In this document: positions 48,125 to 60,005 of the stretch, piece by piece | Layout of the letters: the number at the start of each line of letters is the position of its first letter | Position numbering within the stretch: position 1 is the first letter of the stretch | Position numbers and translations under genes: made by a program | Notes under the pieces: generated by a model | Database searches by the model: none | What the model was told of the DNA's origin: nothing | Seen by the model: the letters and a program-made list of their open reading frames with translations, nothing else | Assembly: GCA_019637355.1 (NCBI GenBank) | Contig: JAHBVT010000001.1 | Span: 2,573,192 to 2,637,191, forward strand | DNA length: 64,000 nt | Source of the DNA: Gemmatimonadaceae bacterium | GTDB lineage: Bacteria > Gemmatimonadota > Gemmatimonadetes > Gemmatimonadales > Gemmatimonadaceae | Direction of reading: 5' to 3'

Positions 48125-49438
48125 TCACCGCGCCAGCGTGAACACAAACGGCTGCTGCACCAGCTGCTTCACCGCCTCCCCCTTCAGTTCCGCCGGAACG
48201 AAGCGCAGCGCCGGGAGCGCCGAACGCACTGCCTCCTCGAACTCCGGCATCGACGAGCGCAGCACGCGGAAGCTCTCGAGGTCGATCCGCCCGTCGGTGC
48301 CGACGATGAACTGCGCGAGGACCTCCCCCTCGACGCCCTGCTCCCGCAGCGCCGACGGATACCGCACGCCGGGCCCACCCGGGACTTGTGCGGCGGGCCT
48401 CTCGGTCTGGAAATCGAAGTACACCTGCTGTCCATCTTTCTGGGCCGCGACTTCGGCGACCTTCGGCGACAGCGGGGAGTCGAGCGTCGCCGCGCAGGCC
48501 GCAACGACGGTCACGACGGCGAGCAGGGCACTGCCGATCAACAGCGCCTTGCGACGAACGGGGCCTACGGTTCCGGTGGTCATTGCGCGAATCCTCGCTT
48601 CGAGTTGGGACGGTCGTGCGGAGAATGCGGGCGCGCCGAGCCGAGGCAGTTGGCGAGGCAGGGCCGCGGTGAGGTCGAGCAGCAGCGTGCCGTACGCGCG
48701 CGCGGGCACGCCGCTGCGCAGCACGCGCGTATCGCAGTCGAGTTCGGTCGCCAGTCGCATGCGGCCGAAGGCCCACCACGTGAGTGGGTTCCACGCCGTG
48801 AGCACAGCGACGGCCGCGCCCGCGCAGAGGAGCGATGGGTCGCGCGCGGTGATGTGCGCCTGTTCGTGCGCGACCACGAGCTGTTGTTCTTCGAGCGGTC
48901 GCTCGAGCAGCCAGCGCGGCACCACGATCTCCGGATTGCGCACGCCAATCACGGCGGGGCCGAACGCTTCGCTGAGTCGCACGCGCACATCACCGATCTT
49001 CGTGTACGGCGCGCGGAGGACGATTGCCCGATTGATCGCATAGCCAAGCACGAGGAAGAGCGCCGCGAACGCGCTGCTCGCGATCCACGCCGTACGGACC
49101 ACGTTGCCGGCATTCTCTGGAAAGAGCGCGAGCGCACGCTGCGCGAATGCGGCGATGCCCTCGAGGAGCGGCGTCACGAGGATCGGTGCGGCGAGGCCGC
49201 CGGTCGCGGCACTCGAGGCGACGGCCGCGGCCGATGCGGCGTCAGCCGTCGCGAACATCCGCCACGGCGTGATGAGCACGAGGGCGGTGCCCAGCAACAT
49301 CGCGCCCAGCCACACGAGGCGCGTCTGGTACCGCAGCCGTCGCAGGCTGCGGTCGAGCGTCCAGGCGCCGAGCGCGAGCAGCGCGGCGCTCCAGACGGCG
49401 ACAAAGAACATCGGCAGGGTGAGCGGGCCGGTGGTCAT
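48125..49438 (-). CDS. BlaR1-type M56 metallopeptidase fused to TonB domain
   Basis: 437 residues. Membrane helices at the N-terminus (FFVAVWSAALLALGAWTL and LVWLGAMLLGTALVLITPW), cytosolic zinc-protease domain with HEQAH in LVVAHEQAHITARD, another helix (ALLIGSALLAVVTVVAACAA), then a C-terminal TonB-like domain (GVRYPSALREQGVEGEVLAQ and FIVGTDGRIDLESFRVLRSS). The protease presumably cleaves the BlaI-like repressor encoded just upstream. There is no penicillin-binding sensor domain; the TonB part replaces it. This fusion is frequent in Gemmatimonadota and Acidobacteriota. Confidence 0.88.
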   Translation of the reverse strand: MTTGPLTLPMFFVAVWSAALLALGAWTLDRSLRRLRYQTRLVWLGAMLLGTALVLITPWRMFATADAASAAAVASSAATGGLAAPILVTPLLEGIAAFAQRALALFPENAGNVVRTAWIASSAFAALFLVLGYAINRAIVLRAPYTKIGDVRVRLSEAFGPAVIGVRNPEIVVPRWLLERPLEEQQLVVAHEQAHITARDPSLLCAGAAVAVLTAWNPLTWWAFGRMRLATELDCDTRVLRSGVPARAYGTLLLDLTAALPRQLPRLGAPAFSARPSQLEARIRAMTTGTVGPVRRKALLIGSALLAVVTVVAACAATLDSPLSPKVAEVAAQKDGQQVYFDFQTERPAAQVPGGPGVRYPSALREQGVEGEVLAQFIVGTDGRIDLESFRVLRSSMPEFEEAVRSALPALRFVPAELKGEAVKQLVQQPFVFTLAR

Positions 49439-49809
49439 TCGTCCTCCTTCAGCCGCTCGGCCAGCAACTGGCGCAGGCGCTGCACTTCATCGCGCGAGAG
49501 GTCGCGGTCGGTGAGGAGCTGCGCGACCATCTGCTCGGCCGATCCGTGGAAGATGGCGTCGCGGATGCGGCGCAGCGCGCTCCCCCCGGCCGCCTCGGCC
49601 TCGATGGTGGCGAAGTAGCGGTACGCGCGTCCCTCGGACTCGTGCCGGACGTAGCCCTTATCCTCGAGGGTCTGCAGGGCGGAGAGCACGGAGGTGTAGG
49701 CGAGCTTTTCGTCGAGATCCTCGCGGACCTCGGCGACGGTGGCCGAGCCGCGCCTCCAGAGGCTGCTCATCACGGCGAGCTCTCTGGGAGGGAAGTAGAT
49801 GTGGGACAC
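49435..49809 (-). CDS. BlaI/MecI/CopY-family repressor
   Basis: 124 residues. Winged HTH: FPPRELAVMSSLWRRGSATV, then KLAYTSVLSALQTLEDKGYV and RAYRYFATIEAE (wing). A C-terminal dimerisation helix ends the protein. Paired with an M56 protease gene by 4-bp overlap, the usual repressor/anti-repressor unit. Likely represses itself at the repeats 49822-49842. What signal is sensed is unknown. Confidence 0.9.
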   Translation of the reverse strand: MSHIYFPPRELAVMSSLWRRGSATVAEVREDLDEKLAYTSVLSALQTLEDKGYVRHESEGRAYRYFATIEAEAAGGSALRRIRDAIFHGSAEQMVAQLLTDRDLSRDEVQRLRQLLAERLKEDE

Positions 49810-49890: not shown

Positions 49891-51621
49891 TCAGTTCTCG
49901 CGCCGTTCCCCGGCCGCATAATGATGGAACCGATCGTGCGTGATCACTGACGCCAGCAGCACCGCGAGCCGGACTTCCCCGCGCAATGTCCGTTCGAAGA
50001 AGTCAGCCATCCAACTGGCCTCCGATGGGTCGGGCAGCGGGGATTCGAGGAACAAACGCCGGTTGCCCGCGCGGCTCACCAGCTGCGGCCAGTTGCAGTA
50101 GTAGACCTCGCCGTCGGCATAGGACACGTCCCCGACGCGGCGGATGGTCTCGAAGCGGGTGGACGGCCCGTCAGGATCCACCCCCGTGCGCGGCAGCTTC
50201 GGCTGCTCCGGCCACACCGCGGCACGGGTCGCATCCGACACGTTGTACCAGGCGACCTGCACGTTATTCGTTCCGTAGAACTCCGTGAACGACAGCTTGA
50301 GGGCGTCGTACTGCTCCAGCTCCATTATGTGCAGCACCACGTCGCGCAGCTCGGGCACGTAGCTGCGGAAGCCGCTGCGGCAGAGCGGAGGGGCGGACGC
50401 ATCGTTGAGGAGCATATCGTCCTCGATGAACACGTAGTAGTCCGCATCGGTCGCGTCGAAGTGCTCGGCGACGAACTGACGGCCGCCGGAGATGCCGCCG
50501 TTGCCCTTGGGGTGGTAGAGGATGCTGGCACCGAAGCGCTCGGCAACCTGCCGATTCTCGGCCTTGGCCTCGTCTTCCGTGCTGTGGTCGAGGATGAACA
50601 GCTGCTCGAAGCGGAACCCCGCGCGCCAGCTCTCCAGCGTGCGCGTGAGTTGGTCGGGCGCGTTGAAGGTCACAACGTATCCCGAGATCCTGCGCTCCGG
50701 CCGGGCGAGGGCGAGCGCGCGGCGACGTTCCTTCCGCGTCGCCAGCGGGTCCGGGCTGACCGCGCGGTAGGTGGCGTTGGGCGCGGGCCGCGGGAGCGTG
50801 CGCACGAATTCGAAGAACGGCTGCAGCAGCCCGTGGTCCTCGTCGCGAAGCTCGTAGCGGCGGTACAGCTCCGGCTCCTCGAGGGCCATCAGCGTGAAGA
50901 CGCTCTCCTCGGTGCCCATCTCGCCCTCGTGCAGGGTCGCCGAGAGCAGGGCGTAGTAGTGCTCGTTGACCTCGGCGAGCACGTCGCGGTGTCCTCCGAA
51001 GAATCCCCCGCGACAGACGTACTGCGGATCGACGCCACTGAATCGTCGCATCCCGGCGCGGGTGAACCCGTGGATCTCCGCGCCGTCCCGGTACGGGAAC
51101 GACACGAAGAAGAAGCGGTCGAGCAGCGACCACACGCGGTCGAGGACGCGCTCCTCGCTGAAGAGCTGGGCAGGCACGGTGCTGGTGATCGCGCCGTCGA
51201 TCCAGGCGAAGTGCGACGAGCCGAACGGATTGCCGATGCGGGCATCGTTCAGCAGGAACATCTTCGACATCACCATCGGGTTGTACAGCGGCAACGTCGC
51301 CTGCGGCGACTCGGCGAGCCACGTGGCCTGCGCGCGCCAGGCCGGGTTGAGGCGGATCGCCTCGACGAGCCGGTAGAGGTCAAAGCGTTCGCGGAACGAC
51401 GCGGCCGGGCGTTCGATGAATTGCGTCGGCCGGCCGGCGCGCTGCGCCTCGACGAACTCGCGCAGCGTCGGATCGCCGTAGATGACCATCGGCGCGTCGG
51501 CCAGGAGCAGCTCGCCGAATCGCTCCCGGTACTGCGCGAAGTCCCGGCGGAATCCCGTGCCGGCTTGGTCGCGCCCGAGATCCCAGATGCCGGTGACGAA
51601 GGTGGTCAGGTCGAGCGTCAC
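49891..51621 (-). CDS. Two-domain glycosyltransferase: HtrL/YibB-like plus GT2-like
   Basis: 576 residues. GTG start at 51621 overlaps the stop of the preceding glycosyltransferase gene (GTGA). N-terminal part (residues ~1-260) matches the HtrL/YibB (WlaTC) family: FVTGIWDLGRD, MFLLNDARIGNPFGSSHFAW, FFVSFPYRDGAEIHGFT. The C-terminal part is a GT2-like domain: ISGYVVTFNAPDQLTRTLES, LFILDHSTEDEA, YHPKGNGGISGGRQFVAEHF and YYVFIEDDMLLND with a DxD-like EDD. Likely cytoplasmic and adding sugars to a polysaccharide or protein. Last gene of the 56560-49891 run. Confidence 0.75.
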   Translation of the reverse strand: MTLDLTTFVTGIWDLGRDQAGTGFRRDFAQYRERFGELLLADAPMVIYGDPTLREFVEAQRAGRPTQFIERPAASFRERFDLYRLVEAIRLNPAWRAQATWLAESPQATLPLYNPMVMSKMFLLNDARIGNPFGSSHFAWIDGAITSTVPAQLFSEERVLDRVWSLLDRFFFVSFPYRDGAEIHGFTRAGMRRFSGVDPQYVCRGGFFGGHRDVLAEVNEHYYALLSATLHEGEMGTEESVFTLMALEEPELYRRYELRDEDHGLLQPFFEFVRTLPRPAPNATYRAVSPDPLATRKERRRALALARPERRISGYVVTFNAPDQLTRTLESWRAGFRFEQLFILDHSTEDEAKAENRQVAERFGASILYHPKGNGGISGGRQFVAEHFDATDADYYVFIEDDMLLNDASAPPLCRSGFRSYVPELRDVVLHIMELEQYDALKLSFTEFYGTNNVQVAWYNVSDATRAAVWPEQPKLPRTGVDPDGPSTRFETIRRVGDVSYADGEVYYCNWPQLVSRAGNRRLFLESPLPDPSEASWMADFFERTLRGEVRLAVLLASVITHDRFHHYAAGERREN

Positions 51622-52892
51622 AGCGACCTCACGATCGGATGTCCCCATCCGTGCACCCGGCTGTGCGGCCAGACGAGCCAGCGCGCGGGGCGTTCATCGG
51701 TGACGAACTCGCGCCAAACTTTGCAGTAGCCGTCCGGGTCGGCCTTCATCCGCGCGATCTCGGCCTCCTCGGCGTCCTGCCGGAAGAGTTCCCGGTCGTC
51801 GGCGCTCTTGAACGCCACGACCCAGCGGTCGTAGTCGTCGTGCGGCACGAGATCGTATCCGACGTCGAGGCAGTGCCGGAACACGGGGACGCACGATGCG
51901 TCGAAGGCCTCGCGGGACAGCTGCGCATTGTCCTCGTGGCGTGGCGGCCTGTGGTCCTGCACCGCTTGGGTGATCGCCCGACGCCGGAAGCTGATGCCGG
52001 CAAAGCGCTCGTAGTCTTCGAGACTGCGAGCCTGCCCGAGCCCATACGGCCCCGTCTGCTCGGCGGCGACTTCATCGGGGCGGTCACGATACGCATCCAT
52101 TCCGAGCAGCCGTCGGCAGCGGTCGTGCGTGGCCTCGTTGAGCCGTCCCCACTCGCGATGGTCGTCCCAGTGCTTCGCGCGCCCGCGGCGGGTGTACTCG
52201 TGCCACGCGACGTGCCGATGCGGATGGAACAGGTCGTACCCGTGGGTGAAGGCGCGCACCGTGATCGTGATCTCTTCGCCGTGGAAGTAGAACTCGGGAT
52301 TGTGCTGGACCTCCCGTGCGAACTCGCCGATGGTGAAGGCGAAGTGCGCGGAGTAGAACCGCGCCGGCTCGGGTTCGTCCATCGACGGCCAGCCGGCCAT
52401 CGCTTCGGGACGAAAGAATATCGCCCCTTCGGGAATGAAGCGGTCGAAGGTGAGGCGCCACGGATCCGGCGCGCGTGCGGCCGGGTCCTGCGACGGATCG
52501 TACGACGGCAGGTAGGCCGTCAGGAGCGGCTTCGCGACGCCGCGTGAGCGGAGTCCTTCGAGCATTTCCATGCAAGTCGTGTCCCAGCCCTCGGCGAAGC
52601 GGTGGTGCGAGTCGAGCTGCAGGGTGTATGCCTCGCCCGCGTAGTGCTGCTGGATCTTGTGGCGTGCCCAGCAGGCGCCGCGGCTCTCAGCGTATGGGAT
52701 GTCGAGCAGCGTCAGGCGGCAGCGCGTGCGCAGCGAGTCAAACTGGTCAATGCTGGCTTCGTCGCCGTGCTGCCACGCGACGCAGATGTGCAGGCGTTCG
52801 GGTGCAGTGGCGTTGTCGAGGAGACTGACGAGCGTGGGGACCAGTTCGGGGTCCCGATACGCAGCCATCTGCACGAAGAGCGTCGCGGACAT
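51618..52892 (-). CDS. GlcNAc-transferase-like glycosyltransferase (GnT1/Skp1 type)
   Basis: 424 residues from ATG 52892 (MSATLFVQMAAYRDPELVPT). QMAAYRDPELVPTLVSLLDN, AESRGACWARHKIQQHYAGE, YTLQLDSHHRFAEGWDTTC (DSH as DxD-like metal site), FIPEGAIFFRPEAM, FYFHGEEITITVRAFTHGYD and LFHPHRHVAWHEYTR match the family of the eukaryotic Skp1 GlcNAc-transferase, found also in bacteria. Predicted cytoplasmic. Overlaps the next glycosyltransferase gene. Confidence 0.82.
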   Translation of the reverse strand: MSATLFVQMAAYRDPELVPTLVSLLDNATAPERLHICVAWQHGDEASIDQFDSLRTRCRLTLLDIPYAESRGACWARHKIQQHYAGEAYTLQLDSHHRFAEGWDTTCMEMLEGLRSRGVAKPLLTAYLPSYDPSQDPAARAPDPWRLTFDRFIPEGAIFFRPEAMAGWPSMDEPEPARFYSAHFAFTIGEFAREVQHNPEFYFHGEEITITVRAFTHGYDLFHPHRHVAWHEYTRRGRAKHWDDHREWGRLNEATHDRCRRLLGMDAYRDRPDEVAAEQTGPYGLGQARSLEDYERFAGISFRRRAITQAVQDHRPPRHEDNAQLSREAFDASCVPVFRHCLDVGYDLVPHDDYDRWVVAFKSADDRELFRQDAEEAEIARMKADPDGYCKVWREFVTDERPARWLVWPHSRVHGWGHPIVRSL

Positions 52893-52920: not shown

Positions 52921-52949
52921 GCGGGTCAGGGCCGCTGGCCCTGACCCGC
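52921..52949 (-). terminator. Strong hairpin between the PqqD and glycosyltransferase genes
   Basis: Perfect 13-bp GC-rich stem GCGGGTCAGGGCC / GGCCCTGACCCGC with a GCT loop, 28 bp upstream of the glycosyltransferase start and 55 bp after the PqqD gene. No T-tract; termination or attenuation likely. Confidence 0.55.
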
Positions 52950-53004: not shown

Positions 53005-53472
53005 TCAGGGGAAGAACGCGCCCGAGCCGCTCCGCGAGGACGTCGGCGAGGCAGAAGCCGACAGCGACGCATCGGGCGGCAACGACGCCGAGTTGGCCAT
53101 CGTCGGCGCGAAGATCCGGTCGATGGAGGGAAACAGCGGAATAGCCGCGAGGAGCTTCACGGCGTCGCGGCGGGCCATCCCGCCCGCAGCACCGGCGCCC
53201 TCGAGGCCGGAGTCCACCAAGAGCCCGTGCTCGTCGAGTTCCGCGAGCGCCCGTTCCACAACCTCGGTGGCCTCTACGTCGGCGGGCAATGCGATCTCGG
53301 ACGCCACAAGCACGGCAATCTCGGCGATCGTGTTCTCGCCGGTGCAGTGCCGCCAGACAATGCTCGACAGCGCGTTGAGCCGGCGGGCCGATTCGTCGCT
53401 GCCATCATAGACCAGCGTTTCGTCGCCGACGCGCTGGGTGACGAGATTGTCCTTGCGGGCAACTGGCTTCAT
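53005..53472 (-). CDS. PqqD-family (RRE-like) protein with twin-arginine-like tail
   Basis: 155 residues from ATG 53472 (MKPVARKDNLVTQRV). Residues 1-90 are a PqqD domain: DETLVYDGSDESARRLNALS, then SIVWRHCTGENTIAEIAVLV, the wHTH that recognises leader peptides in RiPP pathways. After a Gly/Ala linker, residues 101-123 read RRDAVKLLAAIPLFPSIDRI then FAP, a twin-Arg plus hydrophobic stretch resembling a Tat signal in the middle of the protein, followed by a Ser/Ala/Pro-rich tail. It overlaps the HprK-like gene by 4 bp. The tail's role is unknown. Confidence 0.8.
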   Translation of the reverse strand: MKPVARKDNLVTQRVGDETLVYDGSDESARRLNALSSIVWRHCTGENTIAEIAVLVASEIALPADVEATEVVERALAELDEHGLLVDSGLEGAGAAGGMARRDAVKLLAAIPLFPSIDRIFAPTMANSASLPPDASLSASASPTSSRSGSGAFFP

Positions 53473-54353
53473 AGCTCCGTCCGAATACGAGTGAAAGGGT
53501 CCCCGATCCCCGCCGAGGACTGCAGGATTGCGAGGACGCAAGTTGTCGCGTCACCTCGGCCCCCCGCAAGTGCAAAACTGCCCTTTGTGGCCTCGGCAAG
53601 CGCGGCAAGCGCGAACGCCGGCTTGCTGCGTGCCGTCAGCGTATGGCTGAACAGGGCCATCACCGCGTCCCCGGGGCTCAAGGGTCGCGGCGCCCACACC
53701 CCACCCGGTTCGTACGCCGTTGCAATAAGGAGCCGCATCGGCGCCGGTTCGTCCGCAGGCGGCCCGACCAACGCCTCTCGGTGCCGCCGATGCGTGCCTT
53801 GGCGCACGGAGATCCGTCGCGGGTACGGCCAGGCCTGGCCCGCCGCATCGAAGACGGCGTACTCATCCGACCAATACTCCGCACCCGCATCGACCAAGGC
53901 GCGCACCAGCGTCGTCTTGCCGCTGGCGCTCCGCCCCGGCAGCACGATGGTCCCAGAGCCGGTGCGCACCACACCGGCGTGCACGAAAACGTGAGTCGTG
54001 GTGCGGCTCGCGACGGCGAGGCGGAGCGCATCCTCCAGGGCCTCGAGCACCGGACCGAGCCGGATTCCCTCAGCGATGATGGCGGACTGCCGCAGGAGAC
54101 GATGCCGTGGCGCACCGACGCGACTCGGCACACTGCGCTGCAGCGTGAACCATTCCTCGACCGCGGCCGTCGAAGGCACCGCGCACGGGGGCAGCGCCTC
54201 GCGCGTACGATCGAGCAGGGCTTCGTCGTGCGAGCGCACCCCGAGCGTGACCCCGAACGCCGTAAACACCAATCGGTGCGGGGCGGCTTCGATGAGCGGA
54301 AACGCCGGCGGGAGGACGGGCCGAGGCACAGAGCGTCGTGTTGGGGAGTTCAC
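53469..54353 (-). CDS. HPr-kinase-like protein of a PqqD cluster
   Basis: 294 residues. P-loop GRSASGKTT (140-148) within TGSGTIVLPGRSASGKTTLV, and an upstream HVFVHAGVV strand, as in HprK/P C-terminal kinase domains. EYWSDEYAVFD provides the acidic pair. It lacks the HprK N-terminal domain. Kinases of this kind stand next to PqqD and nucleotidyltransferase genes, including some lasso-peptide clusters where they phosphorylate the precursor. Here the substrate is unknown. Overlaps both neighbours by 4 bp. Confidence 0.83.
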   Translation of the reverse strand: MNSPTRRSVPRPVLPPAFPLIEAAPHRLVFTAFGVTLGVRSHDEALLDRTREALPPCAVPSTAAVEEWFTLQRSVPSRVGAPRHRLLRQSAIIAEGIRLGPVLEALEDALRLAVASRTTTHVFVHAGVVRTGSGTIVLPGRSASGKTTLVRALVDAGAEYWSDEYAVFDAAGQAWPYPRRISVRQGTHRRHREALVGPPADEPAPMRLLIATAYEPGGVWAPRPLSPGDAVMALFSHTLTARSKPAFALAALAEATKGSFALAGGRGDATTCVLAILQSSAGIGDPFTRIRTEL

Positions 54354-56560
54354 GGCGCCGGCAGTCCGCGACGCCCCCGGCGCGCCGCCTCACTGAGCAC
54401 GCGCACGGGTCGAATCGCATAGTACGCCACGTGCAGCCACGAAGGCAGCGGGACCACCGCCCAATCCAGATAGGATGGTCGCGCAGCGTCGAGGAGGTTC
54501 GGGAGTGTCGCGCCGCGGAGCCTGAGTCGCTCGCCGAGCAGTCGCCACGGTCGCTGGCGATCGAACACGCGCACGGAATCCCAGTCTCGCTCAAAGCGCA
54601 GGAGGGCTTCCGTCACGAAGCGGCGATCGGCTGCGGGCAACGGACGCAGGCCACGCGCGGCAACGGGGACGCTTCCCCACACGAGACGGATCAGCTCAAG
54701 GGCGTTCGCCAACGCCTGCTGCCCGTGGACCCGTTCGAGATGCTCCTGCATCCGCGCGGCGTCAGCGTCTTGCATCAGTTGGAGGCCCGCGTCGATGTCC
54801 ACCAGCCAGCGCAGCATCTTCCAGATGGACTTCTCGCCGTGCGTGACGAGCATCGCCATCGTGTCGCCCAATGGCGATCCCAGCGCCGTCGGTTCGCCTC
54901 CGATGCCTGGCAGCGCGTCGGCGAGGAGTTCTTCGGTCGACAGCGTCGCGCCGGACGGCCCGGCGTGCCAGTGCAGGTCGATGGCGACGCCGTCGGCCGA
55001 GCCCAACGCGAGCTCCACCGTGCTCGCGAGCACCCGCTCGAGCCCCACGTGGCGAATCGCGCGCTCCCAGCTGCGGGTCAGGTGAAAGCCGAGCGACCGC
55101 AGGACGTCGATTGTCGCCGCGACGTCGCGTGCGTGCACGAGGAAGTCGAGATCCCCGACCACGCGCTGACCGGTGCCTCCGTAGAGCAGGAAGGCGACGT
55201 GGAACCCCTTCAGGGTCAGCGCCTTGATGCCGGCCTCGGCGAGGGCTTGGTTGATGCGACGCCAGCGGGCGAACTTGATCAGCTCCCCGCCGACTTGGTT
55301 CAGTCGTGCGACGCGCAGGTCCACCAGCGCGACAGCCCCGACGTTCCCGTCCACTCGTTCAAGTGCCGAGGCAACAGGCGCCGCGAGCCCGTGGAAGATC
55401 GCCAGATCGCGCACGCGGTTCCAATCGAAGTCCGCGGTCGGCAGGTCCGCGACGACCTGCGCCGATCGCTCGGCGCGCGCGCACGCCGCGACGAAGCAAA
55501 GTTCGGGTGAGACTTCCCCGGGTGGCCTCGTCCGGACGTTCGTCGCGATGCTGGCAGACGTCGTGCTGGGCGCGGCATCGAGGCCGAGCAGCCGAAGCGT
55601 GTGCTCGGCGATCGCGGGATACGCCAGGTGCTCGTCATAGTACCGACGCGCGTTGGATGCGATGCGGCGGAGCGTCGGCTCGTCGTTCCGCACGCGACGA
55701 TAGGTGGCGAGCAAGTCGGCCGCGAGACGCTCGGGATCCTTCGGGTGGTCCGGGTACTGATGTGGCGGCCCCAGTGGTTCGAAGGGCACGCCGATGTAGT
55801 GCTCACCAGCGACCAGCGGCACGGCCAACTCCGCCTGGAGCATCGGCCGCAGCACCGGAACACCGAGCCGGAAGCATTCGATGTCGCGGTGGCACAAGTC
55901 GCCCGCACCCGGCAGGGACAAGGCGACTTGCGACATCGCCAGCTTCCGGAAGTATTGGTCTGCCGGGACATCTCGTTTGTCGTCAGGTGCCCAACAGTCG
56001 ATGTCGACGTCGTCCGCCGGCTGCGCGAGCCGCGCGAGGTGCAGTGCAGCGTCGCGAGCAGGCGAATGCAGGCCGCGGAAGTACAGGCCGCGGCGATTTC
56101 GCTGCGGCGCGGGCCCGGTGGCGGACTCCTGCCAATAGCGGGTGCGGTAGAGCCACGGACGCACCGGCGAGCGCTCGAGGCTGCCCCACGAGTCGCGGAA
56201 GCCTTCCGTCGCGTCGATCTCCGCTCGCAGACGGCTCGGAATGAACTGGCCAGCCAGCAGTTGCGAGACGCGATCCGGCCGGAACCCGAACGCGCGAAAA
56301 TGGTCGAGGGGATGATCGTGCATCGTCACGACGCGCAACATTCCGTCGGACTCGTCTTGCAGGACGAGCGAGTACCAGTGGACTTCAATCTGGCCGCCGT
56401 GGACGGCGTAGACGGGAGCGGCCCGCGCGGACGTGCCGATCGGCTGCGCCAGTCGCAGGCGGTATCGCGGCGCCAAGTGCTCCCGGACGAACCGCTCGGT
56501 GAACTCCCAGAACCAGTCCCCGGGGTGCCGATTCGGGACGTAGACGATGAGCGCTGCCAT
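54350..56560 (-). CDS. Fusion of glycosyltransferase-like and nucleotidyltransferase (NTP_transf_5-like) domains
   Basis: 736 residues from ATG 56560 (MAALIVYVPNRHPGDWFWEF). Residues ~1-330: glycosyltransferase-like region ending SLPGAGDLCHRDIECFRLGV, VPLVAGEHYIGVPFEPLGPP and RRYYDEHLAYPAIAEHTLRL, as in family-1-like or fucosyltransferase-like enzymes that recognise peers by a late SLPG...R.E motif. Residues ~370-736: nucleotidyltransferase family typical of PqqD/HprK clusters: KALTLKGFHVAFLLYGGTGQ, RVVGDLDFLVHARDVAATID (DxD), VAIDLHWHAGP. First gene of the operon. The fusion links sugar transfer with the peptide-modification-like genes. Confidence 0.75.
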   Translation of the reverse strand: MAALIVYVPNRHPGDWFWEFTERFVREHLAPRYRLRLAQPIGTSARAAPVYAVHGGQIEVHWYSLVLQDESDGMLRVVTMHDHPLDHFRAFGFRPDRVSQLLAGQFIPSRLRAEIDATEGFRDSWGSLERSPVRPWLYRTRYWQESATGPAPQRNRRGLYFRGLHSPARDAALHLARLAQPADDVDIDCWAPDDKRDVPADQYFRKLAMSQVALSLPGAGDLCHRDIECFRLGVPVLRPMLQAELAVPLVAGEHYIGVPFEPLGPPHQYPDHPKDPERLAADLLATYRRVRNDEPTLRRIASNARRYYDEHLAYPAIAEHTLRLLGLDAAPSTTSASIATNVRTRPPGEVSPELCFVAACARAERSAQVVADLPTADFDWNRVRDLAIFHGLAAPVASALERVDGNVGAVALVDLRVARLNQVGGELIKFARWRRINQALAEAGIKALTLKGFHVAFLLYGGTGQRVVGDLDFLVHARDVAATIDVLRSLGFHLTRSWERAIRHVGLERVLASTVELALGSADGVAIDLHWHAGPSGATLSTEELLADALPGIGGEPTALGSPLGDTMAMLVTHGEKSIWKMLRWLVDIDAGLQLMQDADAARMQEHLERVHGQQALANALELIRLVWGSVPVAARGLRPLPAADRRFVTEALLRFERDWDSVRVFDRQRPWRLLGERLRLRGATLPNLLDAARPSYLDWAVVPLPSWLHVAYYAIRPVRVLSEAARRGRRGLPAP

Positions 56561-58073: not shown

Positions 58074-59906
58074 TCACGGCCGCGGAACCCCCTGAATGAT
58101 CCCACTCCGAATCCTCCGCGCCTTCACTCCCGCATTCGGATCCGGCTCGATTCGCCGCTCCACGCGTCGGTCAATCTCCACCCGCGCCGTGAGCGTGAGC
58201 CGCTTCCCGTCGCGGATGAGCACGATCGGCACGCTCGCCCCCGGCCGCGCGCCCCACACGGCGCGCCAGCGCCGGCCGAACTCGGGATCGCGCGTGGACG
58301 TCCCGCCGATCTCCACCAACACGTCGCCGTAGTCCACGCCGGCGCGCGCGGCCATTCCGTCGGGATCGAGGCCGGTGACGATCACGCCCTCAGGATGGCC
58401 GCGCAGCAACGCGCCGAGTCGCGGCTCGCTGATGCTGTCCTGCGCGAGGCGCCAGCCGGCGCGCGGGAGCCACTGCGCCCACGGATAGGGATCGCGCCCG
58501 TCGATGAAGCGCCGCTCGAAGTCGCCCCAGGCGCGGCCGCGCGTGGCGCGCGCGACGGCGTTCCAGAAATCGTCGTGCGTGAAGCCGCGTCCCTTGGCCG
58601 CGGCGTTGTCCCAGAGCTCGCGCAGCACGTGGTCAAGCGAGCGGGCGTTGTCGGAGGCGTCCCGGATGAGGATGTCGAGCGCGAAGCCGGCCAACGAGCC
58701 CTTGTCATAGTACAGGTCATCGGTGCCGTCGCGCACGCCGAGCCAAGCCTGCAGCGAGGCGTCCTCGAGCGACGTCGGCGGGCGCGCCTCGACGCCTTCG
58801 ATCTTGCCCAACGTGACTTCGAGGAACGCCGCCTCGTCGCTGAGTCCGCTGCGCAGCAGTGCGAGGTCGGCGTAGTAGTCGGTGATGCCTTCGCTCATCC
58901 AGAGCCAGGGCGTGGGTTGCGGCACGTCATACCGATACGGCCACATCTCGGCCGGCCGCAGGCGCTTCACGTTCCACGCGTGCACGAGTTCGTGCGCGTG
59001 TACGGCCAGGACGAAGGGTTCGTCGAGGAACGGCGTGCCCACCAACGCCAGCTCACTTTCGGAGTGCTCAAGCGCGCTCATCCCGCCGACTTCGTCGTGC
59101 GCCACCTGCAGCACGGTATAGCGCTGCCAGGGCACGGTGCCGAACACGGCGGCGATCGGCTCGACGCTGCGCGTCAGCGCGTCCCAGAGTGCGGCCCGAC
59201 GCGCGCCGGCCACGCTGCCCTCGGGCCAGGTCGCGAGCCGCATCCACTTGTCGGCCACGAGTGCGCTGTCGAGGTCATAGCGCCCGACGAACACCGGATG
59301 GTCGAGCAGGTCGTGCACGTCGGCGGCGCGGAAGCTGTTGGGCGCATCGCCGGGCGCCATCGCCGTGGTCACGCGCCACTCGGCCTCGGTGCGCACGCTC
59401 ACCTGCACCGGCGTGTCCGGACGTCCCTCTACATATAGAAAGACGTTCGTGCCGTTGAAGAAGGCGAAGTCCTCGCTGCTCCAGCTCGCGGCCACGTCGA
59501 GGATGTCCGCCCGCACGCGGTAGCGCAGCTCGATCACCCCGGCGCGCCGCGGCGTGATGCGCCAGGTGTCGGGGTCGAGCTTGTCCCAGCGCAGCGGCAG
59601 CCCGCCCTGCGTGGCGCTGAAGCCGCTCACGCCGCGGGCATAGTTGGCGATCGAATACGACCCAGGCGTCCACGCGGCCATCGAGAGCAGGACGGGACCG
59701 AGCTCACGCACCGTCACCGTCAGCCGCGTGACGACCTCGAGCTCGGCCTCTGCGAGCTGCGCGCGGCCGGCGAGCACCTCCACCTGCATCTCGGTGACCG
59801 CGACCGAGCGCGGCGCCCGCTCCTGGGCGGGGAGGGCCGCGGCCGCGAGCGCGAGGATCAGCCCCAGCGGGGCGAGGCGGCCGAGTCGTGGCGGACGGCG
59901 GAGCAT
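58074..59906 (-). CDS. M61-family metallopeptidase with PDZ domain
   Basis: 610 residues from ATG 59906. Signal peptide LAPLGLILALAAAALPAQ. N-terminal beta domain (AAWTPGSYSIANYARGVSGF), catalytic HELVH in AVHAHELVHAWNVKRLRPAE with downstream Glu in WLWMSEGITDYYADL, and a C-terminal PDZ (GVIVTGLDPDGMAARAGVDY). Matches glycyl aminopeptidase-like M61 proteins. Exported, zinc-dependent. An upstream ATG (59945) would lengthen the N-terminus before the signal peptide. Confidence 0.92.
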   Translation of the reverse strand: MLRRPPRLGRLAPLGLILALAAAALPAQERAPRSVAVTEMQVEVLAGRAQLAEAELEVVTRLTVTVRELGPVLLSMAAWTPGSYSIANYARGVSGFSATQGGLPLRWDKLDPDTWRITPRRAGVIELRYRVRADILDVAASWSSEDFAFFNGTNVFLYVEGRPDTPVQVSVRTEAEWRVTTAMAPGDAPNSFRAADVHDLLDHPVFVGRYDLDSALVADKWMRLATWPEGSVAGARRAALWDALTRSVEPIAAVFGTVPWQRYTVLQVAHDEVGGMSALEHSESELALVGTPFLDEPFVLAVHAHELVHAWNVKRLRPAEMWPYRYDVPQPTPWLWMSEGITDYYADLALLRSGLSDEAAFLEVTLGKIEGVEARPPTSLEDASLQAWLGVRDGTDDLYYDKGSLAGFALDILIRDASDNARSLDHVLRELWDNAAAKGRGFTHDDFWNAVARATRGRAWGDFERRFIDGRDPYPWAQWLPRAGWRLAQDSISEPRLGALLRGHPEGVIVTGLDPDGMAARAGVDYGDVLVEIGGTSTRDPEFGRRWRAVWGARPGASVPIVLIRDGKRLTLTARVEIDRRVERRIEPDPNAGVKARRIRSGIIQGVPRP

Positions 59907-60005
59907 AGGCCGTGTAGGCTCGGTGGCCGCAGGGGGTCCCCGCAAGGGGTCCGTGGCCTTTGGTGGGGGTGGCTCGTCAGAATGTCGTATCCCACCTTAC
60001 CTGCT

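Follow-up and report, generated by a model that had tools for sequence, protein, structure and literature searches.

A probable RiPP-like operon of a Gemmatimonadaceae bacterium in which the candidate precursor appears fused to a PqqD-type recognition domain

Several described peptide-tailoring systems resemble parts of the locus studied here. In lasso-peptide biosynthesis, PadeK/ThcoK and PsmK/PsmN phosphorylate and hexosylate Ser, and the kinases share an ordered H-K-D-D motif that is reported to be catalytic (PMC9266682). Among proteins of the PqqD family (PF05402), which includes RiPP recognition elements (RREs), 21% are reported to exceed the size of a discrete RRE without further annotation (PMC12710340). 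GT60 enzymes glycosylate Ser/Thr or hydroxyproline of polypeptides (PMC6939170, PMC8724618). We analysed a 64,000-nucleotide stretch of a Gemmatimonadaceae genome (hereafter the window) that carries a PqqD gene, a HprK-like kinase gene and an NTP_transf_5 gene beside genes for glycosyltransferases.

Five genes and a PqqD protein longer than its domain

The operon comprises five minus-strand genes, in the order 56560-54350, 54353-53469, 53472-53005, 52892-51618 and 51648-49891. The overlap is exactly 4 bp at both the NTP_transf_5/HprK-like and the HprK-like/PqqD junction, and the start of the HtrL_YibB+GT2 gene shares 31 bp with the end of the GT60-type gene. Coordinates and Pfam matches thus bear out the original prediction of a triad with 4-bp overlaps followed by two glycosyltransferase genes. 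All five genes occur in the same order in a genome of the same genus (G002), and the order HprK-PqqD-GT60-YibB recurs in a genome of the same family (G025); since both share this order, the arrangement is not due to chance. A scan for sigma-70 promoters found none. Elsewhere on the minus strand, the window carries a BlaI-like (Penicillinase-repressor) gene and, after it, a gene for a BlaR1-type M56 peptidase that has a TonB C-terminal domain fused to it (48125-49809), as well as an M61 glycyl aminopeptidase with a PDZ domain (58074-59945).

The first gene (54350..56560, minus strand) encodes a protein of ~736 aa with an NTP_transf_5 domain at residues 378-629 (PF14907, E=3e-33). It had been described as a fusion of glycosyltransferase-like and nucleotidyltransferase-like domains; the latter part stands, and the glycosyltransferase assignment of the N-terminal half could not be confirmed, this half having no Pfam hit at a limit as loose as E<=10. 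Homologous NTP_transf_5 domains are fused elsewhere to GT60, FkbM methyltransferase or HtrL_YibB. By analogy with PsmN of pseudomycoidin, the protein is a candidate hexose or nucleotidyl transferase acting on phospho-Ser.

The second gene (53469..54353, minus strand) encodes a HprK-like protein of 294 aa. Its match to TIGR04352 (HprK_rel_A, E=6e-13) scores 48.5 bits, far under the cut-off of 200, and its AlphaFold2 (AF2) model (pLDDT 90) matches PEPCK and HprK/P in Foldseek; the sub-threshold match and the fold group together uphold its earlier description as a HprK-like kinase. Sequence searches for solved relatives returned P-loop matches only. Residues H125, K146 and D163 are present in 52/52 homologues and D169 in 50/52. 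The protein has both the P-loop and the H-K-D-D set of HprK/PEPCK-fold kinases, the motif being assigned by order and conservation rather than by alignment to ThcoK.

The third gene (53005-53472, minus strand) encodes a PqqD protein of 155 residues (PF05402, E=5.9e-6, over the cut-off), ~70 more than the domain needs. TIGR04353 gives it 14 bits against a cut-off of 35 (E=0.074). The domain itself (aa 1-85; 53218..53472, minus strand) has the bbb-aaa order of an RRE in its AF2 model (pLDDT ~95; the tail is of low confidence), with Foldseek matches to TbiB1 and 6jx3 at TMt 0.72-0.80. Its top Foldseek hits are lasso B1 RREs in complex with leader peptides, in agreement with the RRE-like character proposed for it. 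Downstream lies a twin-arginine signal-like segment, GMARRDAVKLLAAIPLFPSIDRIFAPTMANSA (aa 98-129; 53086..53181, minus strand), with R101-R102, a hydrophobic stretch and APxxA, and then a variable Ser-rich tail of 26 residues, the predicted core SLPPDASLSASASPTSSRSGSGAFFP (53008..53085, minus strand; 9 Ser and 1 Thr). The window signal deviates from the canonical form in having A before RR and an imperfect AxA (ANS, or NSA), and the tail is short compared with the roughly 90-aa tail of G002. TatA and TatC are both present in the genome. No plasmid carriage of the precursor was found.

A separate small precursor was rejected: the spaces between the genes of the operon contain no suitable ORF of 30 aa or more. 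Gene list, Pfam and NCBIfam show no Asn-synthetase-like cyclase (C) in the operon or beside it, and the operon holds neither a B2 protease nor a separate precursor A ORF, the PqqD gene being present with its long C-terminal extension. The original prediction was therefore right that the operon lacks lasso cyclase and protease. Neither a dedicated protease nor an immunity gene was identified. The notion of a peptide-modification cassette without a cyclase, also from the original prediction, holds, with one correction: instead of a separate small precursor, or none, the precursor appears, from its sequence, to lie within the PqqD protein, at its C-terminal end.

The fourth gene (51618..52892, minus strand) encodes a protein with a strong match to the GlcNAc glycosyltransferase family PF11397 (E=6.9e-76), which we take to correspond to GT60; sequence searches found no solved relatives. 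PF11397 occurs in 2/395 sampled Gemmatimonadota genomes, in both cases at the present locus, and additionally in G002. By analogy, the enzyme is a candidate polypeptide O-GlcNAc transferase acting on the tail. The product of the fifth gene (49891..51648, minus strand), with HtrL_YibB and GT2-like matches (PF09612, 4.2e-9; PF00535, 1.4e-5), is probably a further sugar transferase. Between the precursor and GT60 genes lies a hairpin with a 13-bp perfect inverted repeat (52921..52949). A hairpin occupies this place at 3/3 Gemmatimonadota loci with GT60, with a near-identical stem in G002 and a different strong stem in G025. It is not a dispersed repeat, as the genome has a single site; that it sets expression is speculation.

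Distribution of the RRE-signal-tail layout and its matched enzymes

The kinase alignment, run against a single genome for each species, yielded 80 named HprK-like loci in about ten phyla (Gemmatimonadota, Acidobacteriota, Chloroflexota, Cyanobacteria, Armatimonadota, Planctomycetota, Proteobacteria, Myxococcota and others). A PqqD ORF is present in 56/80 and the full RRE-signal-tail layout in 54/80; in the DNA around the remaining 26 loci, no PqqD-signal-tail gene was seen. An NTP_transf_5 gene lies near the precursor at 44 of the 54 loci, again within the DNA around the locus.

The signal-like segment is characteristic of these loci. An RR pair followed by a hydrophobic stretch was found in 64/65 tails, against a mean of 5.4 and a maximum of 11 in shuffled tails, and in 0/17 PqqD proteins taken from elsewhere as controls, some of them tail-less and encoded next to NTP_transf_5-like genes. 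In an alignment of 34 proteins from about eight phyla, RR, P115 and P123 never vary, the residue before RR is S/T in 29, each alanine of AxA is present in 32, and position 130 is S/T in 32/34. The homologue alignment thus carries the canonical S/T-R-R-x-hydrophobic-hydrophobic-K/R pattern, h-region and AxA of a Tat substrate, in which the window signal is imperfect. Relatives of the window protein share the RR pair, the hydrophobic stretch and a SIVAPxPAxA-like block, with a tail whose composition differs by organism. Pfam and NCBIfam models cover the PqqD domain alone and describe no tail; the RRE-signal-tail layout may account for some of the oversized PF05402 proteins.

Tandem paralogues separate the constant from the variable part of the protein. 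Identity over RRE, signal and tail is 95/94/22% at one locus (L043) and 99/97/29% at another (L056), the pattern, at the level of sequence, of a ribosomal precursor with a conserved leader and a variable core. Tails are Cys-rich, S/T/P-rich (the window, G002 and Nostoc) or N/Q-rich. The Cys count is even in 45/46 Cys-rich tails, which are partly related and so do not amount to 46 independent trials. At a Rhodothermia locus (L098:5086-10349), two HprK-like genes occur with five tandem PqqD-domain ORFs, the last of which is truncated where the contig stops, and an uncultured bacterium with three PqqD-signal-tail genes encodes one with SGQTSS-type repeats (L220:7690-8277, minus strand).

The accompanying enzymes vary with the type of tail, each association resting on few independent lineages. 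GT60 accompanies S/T-rich tails at 4/6 loci and other tails at 0/48 (Fisher p=4.7e-5, window not counted; the lineages are Gemmatimonadota, Nostoc and a KilA-N variant). In Nostoc, GT60 is fused to NTP_transf_5 and adjoins a 2OG-Fe(II) oxygenase. At two cyanobacterial loci, a GT60-NTP_transf_5 fusion occurs with a tail-less PqqD and a HprK-like gene, and the Thr-rich tail is on a neighbouring protein. These neighbouring proteins (L221:2369-3007 and L222:3041-3703) end in long Thr-rich stretches, and a KilA-N domain was found in the second. GT60 does not always occur with PqqD: cyanobacterial L215-L219 are other contexts, and no PqqD was seen in the DNA around GT60 in L210, L212 and L213. MauE-thioredoxin-like genes accompany Cys-rich tails only. 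At L082 and L090, YcaO and a ThcOx-like oxidase are encoded between precursor and NTP_transf_5, and the tails are S/C/G-rich. Asn_synthase was found in 2/112 neighbour proteins of the loci.

Proposed pathway and alternative explanations

The architecture, the operon, its conservation, the variability of the tail and the presence of TatA and TatC are read from the DNA and its translations. We think it likely that the operon specifies a RiPP-like pathway with a single polypeptide as both RRE and precursor, modification of the tail by the kinase, the NTP_transf_5 protein and the glycosyltransferases, and export by Tat. In such a pathway, the RRE would act in cis, bringing the modifying enzymes to its own tail, and the HprK-like kinase would phosphorylate Ser/Thr of the tail, the near-invariant S/T just past AxA being a candidate target of modification. 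The NTP_transf_5 protein would then put a sugar (hexose) or nucleotide on the phosphate, for which PsmN is the precedent (PMC9266682), GT60 would attach GlcNAc to tail Ser/Thr (precedents in PMC6939170 and PMC8724618), and the YibB/GT2 protein would lengthen the glycan. Tat would carry the finished tail over the membrane, and signal peptidase would cleave near AxA, releasing a mucin-like (phospho)glycopeptide. Phosphorylation, nucleotidyl or sugar transfer and glycosylation, the chemistry originally proposed, remain the likely activities by analogy.

Alternatively, the protein could be a PqqD-type chaperone whose tail serves as a Tat-inserted membrane anchor or as an export domain, the real substrate of the enzymes being another molecule. 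In favour of this, RREs mostly function in trans (PMC7470986), the hydrophobic segment is a possible anchor, and some tails consist of very few residues (SGKPPP, GGCGSS). Yet an anchor hardly accounts for tandem paralogues whose leaders stay constant while their tails are hypervariable, or for even Cys counts and tail-matched enzymes, and the operon has no separate precursor ORF; we consider this explanation unlikely. We hold it to be distinctly improbable that the enzymes act on a glycan in an envelope polysaccharide pathway, with the exported PqqD tail as no more than an acceptor or attachment protein. The YibB/GT2 genes of the window operon would fit such a pathway, as would a gene cluster with a Wzz/tyrosine-kinase-like tested member near 7/80 loci, but the neighbours are otherwise diverse and include no polysaccharide module that recurs. 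The possibility, raised with the original prediction, that the triad is tied to polysaccharide export alone and to no peptide fails against the presence of a PqqD-signal-tail protein at 54/80 named loci.

A degenerate or partial lasso-peptide cluster, having lost its cyclase and kept the tailoring kinase and nucleotidyltransferase, would explain why the paeninodin and pseudomycoidin clusters use the same enzyme families (PMC9266682), and Gemmatimonadota have tail-less PqqD genes with NTP_transf_5-like neighbours. However, cyclase, protease and precursor A gene are all absent here, the cyclase-free layout is common to most of the 54 loci, and kinase and RRE form a conserved group of their own. 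Reading the operon as a lasso cluster fails for want of cyclase or protease, and its derivation from one is very improbable.

Extending the RiPP-like pathway to all these loci is an even call in our judgement: they may form a widespread class with a cis RRE, Tat export of a hypervariable core, a constant HprK-like kinase and NTP_transf_5 protein, and swappable tailoring (mucin-type O-glycosylation by GT60, disulfides, azoles), the window branch being the bacterial equivalent of the mucin-type O-GlcNAc glycosylation of protists. Genome-mining pipelines would miss such precursors because they seek a separate small ORF, whereas here the candidate precursor follows an export signal on the same polypeptide as the RRE, and loci of this layout are many, in about ten phyla. 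NTP_transf_5 and HprK-like orphans thereby gain a testable substrate, and the suggested route would spare bacteria a dedicated transporter in decorating and exporting disulfide-rich or mucin-like peptides.

Comparison with known systems

Our literature search, of incomplete coverage, returned no relevant account of a twin-arginine PqqD or an RRE-precursor fusion; in the literature searched, we did not find the design of recognition domain, export signal and hypervariable peptide described across many phyla. The tailoring of paeninodin and pseudomycoidin (PadeK, ThcoK, PsmK, PsmN) shares with it the HprK-family kinase, the nucleotidyltransferase, the PqqD-type RRE and the ordered H-K-D-D. It differs in that the system described here has neither cyclase nor leader protease and joins RRE and candidate precursor, along with a Tat-like signal, in one protein. 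Characterised lasso kinases target a C-terminal Ser, whereas the present tails rarely end in Ser, which counts against the kinase acting on the tail. The HPr-rel-A system of NCBIfam is similar in that TIGR04352 matches 52/52 kinases and TIGR04353 16/34 PqqD proteins; however, the window proteins score under the curated cut-offs and the models describe a bare 74-residue PqqD without a tail.

RRE-dependent RiPP clusters (RRE-Finder; PMC7470986, PMC12710340) likewise place an RRE beside modifying enzymes, and two of our loci have YcaO and ThcOx homologues, but here the RRE is covalently within the precursor and a Tat-like signal replaces the usual exporter and leader peptidase. Protist GT60 alpha-GlcNAc transferases (Skp1 Gnt1 and the mucin-type enzymes of T. 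cruzi) also pair a PF11397 enzyme with an S/T/P-rich polypeptide, a likeness that in Nostoc includes a 2OG-Fe(II) oxygenase. In contrast to these, the enzymes described here are bacterial and often fused to NTP_transf_5, and their candidate acceptor is an exported tail fused to an RRE.
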